Of a DNA stretch of 64,000 bases, positions 2,569-6,035 are shown piece after piece. Numbering within the stretch: the stretch's first letter is position 1; each line of letters begins with the position of its first letter. Position numbers and translations under genes: made by a program. Source of the DNA: Salinigranum rubrum (GTDB lineage: Archaea; Halobacteriota; Halobacteria; Halobacteriales; Haloferacaceae). Where the stretch lies: positions 1 through 64,000 of the forward strand of contig NZ_CP026309.1 in the NCBI RefSeq assembly GCF_002906575.1, given 5' to 3'. The notes beneath the pieces were generated by a model that was not told the origin of the DNA, made no database searches, and saw only the letters and a list, made by a program, of their open reading frames with translations.

Positions 2569-2646
2569 ATGGCGCTCGAACCCCACGCGCGGCGTACCGC
2601 TCCCCAGCCACCGGTTTCGGGGTTCGGCTTCTTCTTCGCGGGCTGA
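2569..2646 (+). CDS. Phe-rich leader peptide of pheST (putative)
   Basis: A 25-codon ORF (ATG 2569, TGA 2644-2646) in the 5' region of pheST. It starts MALEPHARRT and ends VSGFGFFFAG, so four of the last seven residues before the stop are phenylalanine (TTC codons at 2623, 2629, 2632 and 2635). A T-rich element (GTTTTTG, about 2538-2544) lies some 27 bases upstream of the ATG, consistent with a leaderless transcript starting at this ORF. It ends 141 bases before pheS. Regulatory Phe codons before phenylalanyl-tRNA synthetase genes are the hallmark of bacterial pheST attenuation (PheM). That this works in an archaeon is my inference. Confidence 0.6.
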   Translation: MALEPHARRTAPQPPVSGFGFFFAG

Positions 2647-2697
2647 CCGTCGGTGGACCCCGCTCGCGTCCGAGGGGACGCGACGGGCGAAACCGAC
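2612..2697 (+). promoter_or_regulatory. Mutually exclusive stems in the pheST leader
   Basis: Two competing pairings are visible. CGGTTTCG at 2612-2619, just before the Phe codons, is perfectly complementary to CGAAACCG at 2688-2695. The same downstream segment (ACCGAC, 2692-2697) can instead pair with GTCGGT at 2649-2654, enclosing a perfect 8-bp GC-rich hairpin, TCGCGTCC (2664-2671) and GGACGCGA (2676-2683) with loop GAGG. The arms overlap, so both cannot form at once. A ribosome paused at the Phe codons would cover the first arm. There is no obvious U tract, so the output (termination, processing or pheS initiation) is unknown. Confidence 0.45.
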
Positions 2698-2787
2698 GCT
2701 CCCGGCCGGTTCCCCCAGACGCCGGTCACGACCCGCAACGGCTAACTGACGACCGGACACCTCACCAGATAGACCCAGACGCGACAC

Positions 2788-4302
2788 ATGACACGCACAC
2801 TCCCGGAAGCCCAGCACGCGGTCCTCACGACCGCGTCGGCGGACGACGCACAGACCATCGACGAACTCGCGGCGGAGACGGGGCTGAAGCCCGAGACCGT
2901 CACCGGCGCGGCGTTCGAACTCGAAGACGCAGGTCTCGTCGCCATCGACGAGTCGGTCGTCGTCGACTACACGCTCACCGGCGAGGGCGAGCGATACGTC
3001 GAGGCTGGCCTCCCAGAGGTCCGTCTCTACCGCGCCGCCGTCGACGCGGGCGCCCGCGACGACCCCGTCTCGATGGGGCAGGTCATCGGCGCATCGGGAC
3101 TCAACGGAGGGGAGGTCGACGTCGCCCTCGCCAACCTCGCACGCAAGGGGTACGGGCGGATCGACAGCGGCCAACTCTCCGCCGACGACGCCGACCCCGA
3201 CGCCGACCCCGAGGCCGACGCGCTCGCGGCACTCGCCGACGGAAGCGACGAGGGACTCGACACCGCAGTCCTCGACCAGCTCGAATCCAGAAACCTCGTC
3301 GAGCGACACGAACGGACCGTCCGCTCGGTTCGACTCACCGACGACGGCGTCGACGCCGTCATGCTGGAGGGCGTCGAGGCGGCGGAGACGGTCGACCGGC
3401 TGACGCCCGAGATGCTCACCACCGGCGAGTGGCGCGACGTCGAGTTCACGGCGTACAACGTCGAGGCTGACGCTCCTGAGCACCGGGGAGGGAAGACCCA
3501 CATCCTCAGACAGACCGCCGAGCGTGTCAAGGACGTCCTCGTCGGGATGGGGTTCGAGGAGATGGACGGCCCCCACGCCGACGCCGAGTTCTGGATCAAC
3601 GACTGCCTGTTCATGCCGCAGGACCACCCCGCCCGCACCCACTGGGACCAGTTCGCGCTGGACGTTCCGCCCATGGGAGAGCTCCCCGAAGAACTCGTCG
3701 AGCGAGTCGAGTCCGCACACCGAAACGGCGAAGGCGAGGACGGCGACGGCTACCACTCGCCGTGGACCGAGGAGGTGGCGCGGGAGGTCGACCTCCGCGG
3801 GCACACCACGTCGCTGTCGATGCGATACCTCTCGGGCCACGCGGTCGGTGAGTTGGAGCCGCCCCAGCGGTACTTCTCCGTCGAGAAGGTGTACCGAAAC
3901 GACACGCTCGACCCCACTCATCTGTTGGAATTCTTCCAGATCGAGGGGTGGGTGATGGCCGAGGACCTGTCGGTCAGGGACCTGATGGGCACGTTCACGG
4001 AGTTCTACAGCCAGTTCGGCATCACCGACATCCAGTTCAAGCCCCACTACAACCCCTACACCGAGCCGTCGTTCGAACTCTTCGGGCGGCACCCCGAGAC
4101 GGACGAACTCATCGAGATCGGAAACTCGGGGATGTTCCGCGACGAGGTTTTGAGACCCCTGGGTGTCGACTGCGACGTGATGGCCTGGGGGCTCGCCCTC
4201 GAACGCCTGCTGATGCTCATCTACGGCTTCGACGACATCCGCGACGTCCACGGGACGCTGTGTGATCTCGACCTCTTGCGGGAGACGGAGGTGCTGTACT
4301 GA
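2788..4302 (+). CDS. pheS: Phenylalanine--tRNA ligase alpha subunit
   Basis: Class II aminoacyl-tRNA synthetase subunit of 504 aa that, with PheT, charges tRNA-Phe in an (alpha-beta)2 tetramer. The N-terminus (about 1-95) is winged-helix-like, as in the archaeal/eukaryotic type. The catalytic core (about 230-504) shows SLSMRYLSGHAV, the motif 2 region QRYFSVEKVYRND, NPYTEPSFELFG, and motif 3 GLALERL at about 468-474. The stop overlaps the pheT start by one base (TGATG), so the two are translated together. The leader ORF and stems upstream suggest regulation by Phe-tRNA supply. Confidence 0.97.
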   Translation: MTRTLPEAQHAVLTTASADDAQTIDELAAETGLKPETVTGAAFELEDAGLVAIDESVVVDYTLTGEGERYVEAGLPEVRLYRAAVDAGARDDPVSMGQVIGASGLNGGEVDVALANLARKGYGRIDSGQLSADDADPDADPEADALAALADGSDEGLDTAVLDQLESRNLVERHERTVRSVRLTDDGVDAVMLEGVEAAETVDRLTPEMLTTGEWRDVEFTAYNVEADAPEHRGGKTHILRQTAERVKDVLVGMGFEEMDGPHADAEFWINDCLFMPQDHPARTHWDQFALDVPPMGELPEELVERVESAHRNGEGEDGDGYHSPWTEEVAREVDLRGHTTSLSMRYLSGHAVGELEPPQRYFSVEKVYRNDTLDPTHLLEFFQIEGWVMAEDLSVRDLMGTFTEFYSQFGITDIQFKPHYNPYTEPSFELFGRHPETDELIEIGNSGMFRDEVLRPLGVDCDVMAWGLALERLLMLIYGFDDIRDVHGTLCDLDLLRETEVLY

Positions 4303-6035
4303 TGCCCGTCGTCGACGTCTCCCTCGAGGAGTTACAGCGGCTCACCGGCGAGGAGAAGAGTGAAGAGGAGTTCAGAGCGGACCTGTTCGCGCTCGGCCTC
4401 GAGTACGAGGGCGAGACCGAGGAGGGGAAGATGCAACTCGAATTCGGTCCCGACCGCCTCGACCGACTGTCGGTCGAGGGCGTCGCCCGGTCGCTCCGGT
4501 ACCAGTACGGTTCCGACAGGGGCGTCGCCGTCCCGAAGACGAACGACGCCGACTGGACCATCGAGGTCGATTCGTCGGTTCCGGAGGAACGACCGTACGT
4601 CACGGGCGCAATCGTGCGAGGGCTCGACCTCGACGAGGCCGGCCTCGAATCGCTCATCCAGTTGCAGGAGAAACTCCACGCGACGATGGGGCGCAAGCGC
4701 GCGAAGGGCGCCATCGGCATCCACGACCTCGCGATGGTGAAAGGCGAGGTGTTGAACGAGGAGACCGGGGGCAACTCCATCACCTACCGTGGCGTGGCAC
4801 CCGACGGCGACCGCTTCGTCGCGCTCGATTCCGACGCCGAGTTGACGCCGGGGGAGGTGCTCGAACAGCACCCCACCGGTCGGAAGTACGCAGACCTCGT
4901 GAGCGAGTACGACCGCTACCCGGCCATCTACGACGAACTCGGGCTGTTCTCGTTCCCCCCGGTGATCAACGGCCGCCGGACCGAGGTCGACACCGACTCC
5001 CGCGAACTCCTCGTCGAACTCACGGGGACGGACCAGTGGACCATCGACCGGATGTGTACCATCATCTGCTACGCGCTCTCCGCGCGTGGCGCGACCATCG
5101 AAGAGGTCGAAGTCGAGTACGAGGACGCATCGCGCGCGCCCGACGACGGGGCGAGCCTGGTGCGCCCGGACCTCTCGGTTGACCGGAAGACGGTCTCACA
5201 CGACCGCATCGAGTCCATGCTCGGCGTGGACCTCGACGCCGACGAAGTCGTCGACCTCTTCGAGCGCTCGGGTCTCGACGCGACGTACACGCTCGGCGAC
5301 GACGTGGAGTACGAGGTGGAGATTCCGCCCTACCGGGTGGACGTGCTCCACCCGCTCGACCTCATCGACGACGTGGGTCGCGCCTACGGATTCAACGACC
5401 TCGAACCGAAGTACCCCGACGTCTCGACCGTCGGCGGTCGTCACGAGCGCTCCCGCCTGGAGAACGTCGCCCGCACCTCGCTCGTGGGACTGGGCTTCGA
5501 GGACCTCCTGAACTTCCACATGATCTCCGAAGAGGAGAACTACGACCGGATGCGACTCGCGGAGGGCGACGACGCGCTCGGCGGCGGGGAGGCGGTGACC
5601 ATCACCGAACCCTACAGCGAGGATTACACGATGCTCCGGACGTGGGCGCTCCCTTCGCTGCTGATGGTGCTGGAGAACAACACCCACCGGTCGTACCCGC
5701 AGGACCTCGCCGAAATCGGCCTCGTCGCCAACGAGGACGAGGCCGAGTCGACACACGTCCACGAGTCACGACACGTCGCGGGCGTGCTCGCCCGGCACGA
5801 CGCGACCTACGAGGACGCGAAGGCTCGCCTGAGCGCGCTCTGCCGCGACTTCGACGCGGACCTCGACACCCCCGCGACCGACCACCCGTCGTTCATCCCC
5901 GGTCGCGCCGCCGAAATCGTCGTCGACGGCGAGTCGGTGGGCGTGGTCGGCGAGTTCCACCCCGAGGTGCTGGTCGAACACGACCTCGAACTTCCGGTTG
6001 CAGGGTTCGAGTTCGAACTCGACGCGCTGCGGTGA
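4302..6035 (+). CDS. pheT: Phenylalanine--tRNA ligase beta subunit
   Basis: 577-aa beta subunit of archaeal/eukaryotic-type PheRS, which lacks the long C-terminal modules of bacterial PheT and is normally near this length. It begins MPVVDVSLEELQRLTG. B3/B4-like editing sequence (about 100-250) precedes a B5 tRNA-interaction region (about 275-350, EVEIPPYRVDVLHPLDLIDDVGRAYGF) and a class II-like pseudo-catalytic core ending GVVGEFHPEVLVEHDLELPVAGFEFELD. The start overlaps the pheS stop. No other gene follows on this strand until 7529. Confidence 0.97.
   Translation: MPVVDVSLEELQRLTGEEKSEEEFRADLFALGLEYEGETEEGKMQLEFGPDRLDRLSVEGVARSLRYQYGSDRGVAVPKTNDADWTIEVDSSVPEERPYVTGAIVRGLDLDEAGLESLIQLQEKLHATMGRKRAKGAIGIHDLAMVKGEVLNEETGGNSITYRGVAPDGDRFVALDSDAELTPGEVLEQHPTGRKYADLVSEYDRYPAIYDELGLFSFPPVINGRRTEVDTDSRELLVELTGTDQWTIDRMCTIICYALSARGATIEEVEVEYEDASRAPDDGASLVRPDLSVDRKTVSHDRIESMLGVDLDADEVVDLFERSGLDATYTLGDDVEYEVEIPPYRVDVLHPLDLIDDVGRAYGFNDLEPKYPDVSTVGGRHERSRLENVARTSLVGLGFEDLLNFHMISEEENYDRMRLAEGDDALGGGEAVTITEPYSEDYTMLRTWALPSLLMVLENNTHRSYPQDLAEIGLVANEDEAESTHVHESRHVAGVLARHDATYEDAKARLSALCRDFDADLDTPATDHPSFIPGRAAEIVVDGESVGVVGEFHPEVLVEHDLELPVAGFEFELDALR

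Follow-up and report, generated by a model that had tools for sequence, protein, structure and literature searches.

The window, a stretch of 64,000 nucleotides from the haloarchaeon Salinigranum rubrum, carries pheS, encoding the alpha subunit of phenylalanine--tRNA ligase (2788-4302, plus strand; NF003210, 581.5 bits), followed by pheT, encoding the beta subunit (4302-6035, plus strand; TIGR00471, 442.6 bits). Upstream of pheS on the same strand, a 25-codon ORF (2569-2646) runs from an ATG to a TGA stop at 2644-2646 and encodes MALEPHARRTAPQPPVSGFGFFFAG. Its Phe codons, at 2623, 2629, 2632 and 2635, form a cluster at 2623-2637 on the plus strand, and 141 nt separate its stop from pheS. Sequence comparison supports the assignment of 2569-2646 as a Phe leader of archaeal pheST with a predicted regulatory role, pheS being the proposed controlled gene. 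Between the ORF of a universal stress protein and pheS we also noticed two ORFs, at 2255-2530 and 1667-2119, both on the minus strand: one of 150 aa has weak similarity to HAD phosphatases, and one of 91 aa matches no known family.

The first-pass annotation had pointed out the short ORF with four Phe codons upstream of pheST and proposed a search for its like at related pheS genes. Orthologues are present at the same place across Halobacteria. In a collection of 179 pheS upstream regions, 80 of them from named GTDB species and with some genomes counted twice, 146 loci had a short ORF with a cluster of Phe codons at its end. Stricter rules retained 131 distinct ATG leaders. At 65 of the 80 named loci the leader is an ORF of 22-32 codons with at least three Phe among its last 12 residues, and only five other Phe-ended ORFs occur among 1119 of that size on both strands of these loci; the Phe-ended ORF is thus beyond chance. 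The leader was cast as a covariance model, R1, defined by the Phe cluster upstream of pheS and two RNA structures described below, helix A:B and P1-P2 with its GGA/GAAA motifs. R1 had matches in 121 of 145 haloarchaeal genomes, representing 51 of 59 genera, and with few exceptions a genome carried a single match. Those principal matches that were checked against pheS coordinates lie just 5' of pheS; the few second matches are weak. The match in the window (2569-2702, 104.5 bits, E = 1.5e-22) belongs to a training sequence, and R1 also scores high outside the training set, for example at 109 bits in genome G076. Across 148 genomes sampled from the phylum, R1 had no match outside Halobacteria under stricter Infernal filters, which may lose weak matches. 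A comparison with all families of Rfam 15, Phe and Trp leaders and the T-box among them, assigned the leader to none at E values up to 1, in the window as in 12 relatives.

Some lineages, among them Halonotius and Halalkalirubrum, have no Phe leader (loci L014, L018, L020, L022, L068, L118 and L172). At several leader-free loci another ORF ends just 5' of pheS, and pheS may there be transcribed from an upstream promoter. Among 20 prephenate dehydratase loci, no Phe leader was found in the form of a short ORF with at least three Phe in eight residues.

A putative leader promoter lies at 2535-2543 on the plus strand, with a BRE-like AA at 2535-2536 (-34/-33) and a TATA-like TTTTT at 2539-2543 (-30 to -26), positions that fit a haloarchaeal BRE and TATA box for a transcript start at about 2569. 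The TATA-like element, already seen in the first-pass annotation, keeps its position across the 131 leaders. When their upstream regions were aligned on the leader ATG, A/T made up 96% of bases at -34/-33, rising to 95-100% over positions -29 to -26, and the distance from promoter to ATG was fixed. No comparable A/T promoter signal was found upstream of the pheS ATG at these 131 loci. The fixed distance predicts a leaderless transcript, and by this sequence criterion the leader mRNA is probably leaderless.

Data from Haloferax volcanii are consistent with this reading. Table 2 of a differential RNA-seq study (PMC4983044) lists a 26-aa uORF in the 5' region of pheS (HVO_2948), with a transcription start upstream of the uORF and no second start at pheS. 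Together with the fixed promoter distance, this agrees with the earlier suggestion that the transcript begins with the leader; a start between 2647 and 2788, which the first-pass annotation had regarded as incompatible with its reading, has no counterpart at pheS in that table. The Haloferax leaders collected here are 26 aa long, and one has a computed pI of 5.9, equal to the listed value; the mass listed for the H. volcanii uORF is off by 50 Da from that of this congener. The listed uORF is likely the pheS Phe leader. As the leader ORF shares its transcript with pheS, it could also act by translational coupling, ribosomes leaving the leader to reinitiate at pheS. Termination-reinitiation in Haloferax likewise lets an upstream ORF influence the gene behind it via the ribosome, but in H. 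volcanii this coupling is reported to fade beyond 30-40 nt (PMC12548453), against a gap of 141 nt in the window, and we consider this explanation exceedingly improbable.

Within the leader, Phe is nearly confined to the end of the peptide. Three or four Phe stand among the last 12 residues in 126 of the 131 leaders, and outside these residues Phe accounts for 7 of 1912. At the Phe codons past helix A:B, TTC and TTT are mixed (79:41, 67:36 and 78:21 in the 131 leaders). This exchange of codons with retention of Phe argues that selection acts on the amino acid. Typical forms of the peptide are MASEPKRGTRASEPTTDGFGFFFLTA in Haloferax, MASESHRAGVARQLSDSPGFGFFFAA in Haloarcula, MALERAGSGIASGVDGDAFGFFFA in Halorubrum and MAPEPTAAIGVASEKPTGNGFGFFFAR in Natronomonas. 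Its conserved parts are the start, M-x-x-E-P/S, and the end, GFGFFF; in an alignment of 74 sequences the middle varies in sequence and length.

The start and the end of the ORF are linked by RNA pairing. Segment A (2576-2584, plus strand, UCGAACCCC), which covers leader codons 3-6, is the 5' arm of a covarying helix A:B, whose 3' arm is segment B (2619-2627, plus strand, GGGGUUCGG) with the Gly-Phe-Gly codons. This in-ORF helix was absent from the first-pass annotation. Codon 5 combines with the codon ahead of the first Phe as CCC-GGG (46), TCC-GGA (32), TCC-GGG (24), CGC-GCG (4) and CAC-GTG (1). Codon 5 thus tracks the codon before the first Phe, which indicates that RNA pairing largely explains why the start of the peptide is kept. 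The conserved ends of the peptide might otherwise suggest a functional microprotein that stands beside pheS by mere position. The pairing of CCC with GGG, TCC with GGA, CGC with GCG and CAC with GTG accounts for the conserved start, however, the middle of the peptide is variable, and the R1 matches that were checked occur only before pheS. A microprotein is therefore very unlikely in our view.

A second structure, P1-P2, follows the ORF and starts 0-8 nt past the stop in most leaders. Its order is P1, Y-GGA, the hairpin P2, GAAA and the closing strand of P1. In the window, all on the plus strand, the 5' arm of P1 (2648-2653, CGUCGG) begins 1 nt past the stop codon and pairs with the 3' arm at 2693-2698 (CCGACG). 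Between them lie the GGA of the P1/P2 internal loop (2655-2657), P2 (2659-2687; basal pairs 2659-2662/2684-2687, apical 8 bp 2664-2671/2676-2683) and the GAAA of the same loop (2689-2692). Both loop motifs are invariant in the 74-sequence alignment, whose members were picked partly by these motifs, while helices P1 and P2 vary by compensation around them. A reading of the loop as a K-turn was dropped on reasoning, since the loop departs from the K-turn consensus.

Taken as a whole, the leader has an unexceptional and uninformative folding energy (z = -0.9), and structure was judged by covariation and comparison instead. In the 74-sequence alignment 91.8% of cells are paired, compared with 73.5% after shuffling, and in A:B, P1 and P2 both partners have changed in 281 cells, compared with 99 +/- 10, levels reached in none of 500 shuffles; P1 pairs 1-3 served to locate P1, so that only the outer P1 pairs and P2 are independent of that choice. 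RNAalifold recovered all three helices unaided. By parsimony on the pheS protein tree, double changes that keep the pair number about 17 for A:B, about 31 for P1 and about 67 for P2, and the energy of A:B was -17.53 kcal/mol within species compared to -14.53 kcal/mol between species. Comparative analysis thus supports A:B and P1-P2 as conserved leader RNA structures.

These results bear on the pairings first proposed, in which two competing arrangements were to be formed around the Phe codons. The pairing of GTCGGT (2649-2654) with ACCGAC (2692-2697) is present, covaries and is conserved as P1 of P1-P2; the perfect 8-bp hairpin that it encloses (2664-2671/2676-2683) is the apical part of P2. 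The other pairing, of CGGTTTCG (2612-2619) with CGAAACCG (2688-2695), can be formed in the window and is species-specific, showing neither covariation nor other comparative support. The idea of two competing pairings accordingly did not hold up. Competition by a pairing of B with segment D was also rejected: it does not covary, and its energy was -10.41 kcal/mol within species and -10.42 kcal/mol between species, no gain over mismatched partners.

The position of P1-P2 relative to the ORF is close to constant. Counted from the last Phe codon, its GGA comes after 21.5 +/- 1.9 nt, and counted from the stop, after 12.2 +/- 2.3 nt, unlike the distance from GAAA to pheS, which has a spread of +/- 28 nt. 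The footprint of an ordinary ribosome extends from the A-site codon 15 nt back and 12 nt forward. With a ribosome on the last Phe codon, folding of 102 leaders with the covered bases masked gave 0.48 for P1 and 0.00 for A:B; with the ribosome at the stop the values were 0.02 and 0.68. As masked bases were barred from pairing, this switch is partly true by construction and describes geometry rather than function, and the folding parameters are those for 37 C, not haloarchaeal salt. Five footprint sizes gave the same direction, more weakly at the longest forward edge. Without a ribosome P1 was computed at 0.49, so P1-P2 forms in that state too and an off state requires a ribosome at the stop codon.

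Starting from these comparative features, we infer a course of events from translation of the ORF and stalling to the sign and the step of control. Transcription would start at or beside the leader ATG and a ribosome would load on the leaderless mRNA. When Phe-tRNA is ample, it would reach the stop and cover the 5' arm of P1, and A:B would form in its wake. Under a shortage of Phe-tRNA, the ribosome would stall in the Phe cluster and cover B, preventing A:B; P1 would be left free, and P1-P2 with its GGA/GAAA loop would fold and raise pheST expression. This sign is proposed by analogy, because synthetase genes usually respond to a shortage of their charged tRNA in this way. The opposite sign would make P1-P2 an off structure, a pause, termination or processing site whose formation is prevented by a ribosome at the stop. 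P1-P2 is stable, has a conserved loop and forms without a ribosome, and as an off structure it would keep untranslated transcripts off. However, pheST expression would then fall at scarce Phe-tRNA, against the usual control of synthetase genes, and no U-run follows P1-P2. We regard the opposite sign as unlikely.

With P1-P2 as the on structure, the step that is controlled has to be considered. None of the 131 leaders has a U4 run between the leader stop and pheS, so that intrinsic terminators of both the bacterial and the archaeal kind are absent, and any premature termination must therefore be factor-dependent. As neither a competing pair nor a terminator was found, a classical antiterminator/terminator pair is unsupported. 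Archaeal polarity has been attributed to aCPSF1/FttA, and haloarchaea are suspected of coupling transcription to translation (PMC12548453, PMC8116511, PMC8576121). For these reasons we favor, as the most likely output, that P1-P2 would block aCPSF1/FttA termination, or a pause, in the untranslated 140-nt leader. We consider it probable that the locus is a ribosome-sensing leader of pheST with P1-P2 as on-structure and termination as the probable output.

A further conserved sequence, element E (2735-2750, plus strand, GCAACGGCTAACTGAC), lies upstream of pheS. Its consensus is GGAACNGNTAACTGAC, and it is found 30-60 nt 5' of pheS. Exact matches to the pattern in 40 genomes stood at pheS wherever they were checked, so a general promoter motif was rejected, and judging from sequence E seems specific to pheS. 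An E-like site occurs at 111 of the 131 leader loci and at 34 of 48 loci without a leader. Candidate roles are a weak promoter, an operator or an RNA element. Complementarity to 16S rRNA was dropped on inspection, the matching bases varying between genera.

E may be relevant to another output, in which the place of the ribosome within the leader would govern pheS translation or mRNA stability, possibly with E as part of that output. The conserved E and the lack of an intrinsic terminator would fit such control, as would the report that SD motifs do not work in H. volcanii 5'-UTRs (PMC8576121), so that pheS needs another entry route. On the other hand, E is also retained at leader-free loci, and a search for downstream partners of segments D, C, P2, A and B in the downstream region, in E and at the pheS start gave no convincing covarying pairing by which the leader structures could reach either. 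An output in translation or stability is a serious alternative that we hold with low confidence.

A second leader was found upstream of the bacterial-type trpS2 gene (TIGR00233) of many haloarchaea, where 28 distinct sequences, for example MVSTSHANCWRWHVSREVDSIAV and MTSALECWWRWQTPSRADSVVVADDVA, contain Trp codons (loci L180-L187 and L210-L239, upstream of trpS2, and L280, 1501-1569, of Haloferax mediterranei pHME505). A hairpin within the ORF encloses the Trp codons, and its two arms show covariation (GC/AU, CG/UA/GC and CG/UA). In the H. mediterranei pHME505 plasmid record the leader ORF is unannotated. Between the Trp leader and trpS2 we also noted a conserved pyrimidine-rich stretch (GCTCACTCGCTTTCTC-like). 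The H. volcanii list (PMC4983044) includes a 23-aa uORF at HVO_A0127; the haloarchaeal bacterial-type trpS2 is apparently the family of HVO_A0127, and the listed uORF is almost surely the Trp leader. At 20 trpE loci, no short ORF with at least three Trp in eight residues was found, a search that a two-Trp leader would escape. Like the Phe leader, the Trp leader is a cognate short ORF with a covarying in-ORF hairpin before a synthetase gene; it differs in having the Trp codons in the hairpin loop, in its other downstream elements and in the absence of a recognised P1-P2.

That the Phe and the Trp leader each match their own synthetase is the strongest argument for the codons as the sensor. It also bears on a reading of P1-P2 as mainly an operator for PheRS or another RNA-binding protein, to which the leader ORF merely gates access. 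The GGA/GAAA internal loop, invariant between covarying helices, has the appearance of a recognised site. Binding to it is a prediction, however, and the reading leaves both the Phe cluster and the Trp leader of trpS2 unexplained, and an operator as the main function is improbable.

In its working, the ribosome-sensing leader proposed here would resemble the bacterial attenuators trpL, hisL, pheL and pheM (of pheST), minus competing pairs and intrinsic terminator. As in these, a short ORF rich in cognate codons stands at the start of the transcript, and formation of a helix hinges on the position of the ribosome. Clustered cognate codons before pheST and a transcript start upstream of or at the leader ORF are thus features shared with classical attenuators. 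Two others were not found: mutually exclusive pairings, since A:B and P1 alternate only via ribosome masking, and, in the 131 leaders, an intrinsic terminator. Bacterial systems rely on antiterminator/terminator competition and such a terminator, whereas here a conserved GGA/GAAA loop is found instead; the pheST leader is also archaeal and probably leaderless, and one arm of a helix inside its ORF consists of the codons that would be sensed.

In the open-access literature, with most subscription papers outside the scope, no description of archaeal leader-peptide attenuation was found, and a review of archaeal transcription-translation coupling makes no mention of it. One tool paper states in general terms that attenuation is a mode of regulation by uORFs in archaea as well, with no case given there (PMC10219788). 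The closest precedent is the set of H. volcanii uORFs of Babski 2016 (PMC4983044), which likely includes the same ORFs at HVO_2948 (26 aa) and HVO_A0127 (23 aa). Their entries present them as small proteins in long 5'-UTRs and name no role of Phe or Trp codons, structure, conservation or mechanism.

As a broader proposal, held tentatively and at less than even confidence, haloarchaea may have independently evolved cognate leader switches, Phe for pheST and Trp for trpS2, in which a stalled ribosome exposes P1-P2 as an antitermination element that acts on polymerase or a termination factor without an intrinsic terminator. The analysis supplies a new RNA family, R1, and the matching Trp case. 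If the proposal is true, a leader-peptide attenuator would exist in Archaea, in most haloarchaea including the genetically tractable Haloferax, and ribosome-sensing control would have arisen in a domain other than Bacteria, acting on leaderless mRNAs with no intrinsic terminator. It would also offer a gene-specific natural handle on the functional coupling of transcription and translation in archaea and on the regulation of aCPSF1/FttA.
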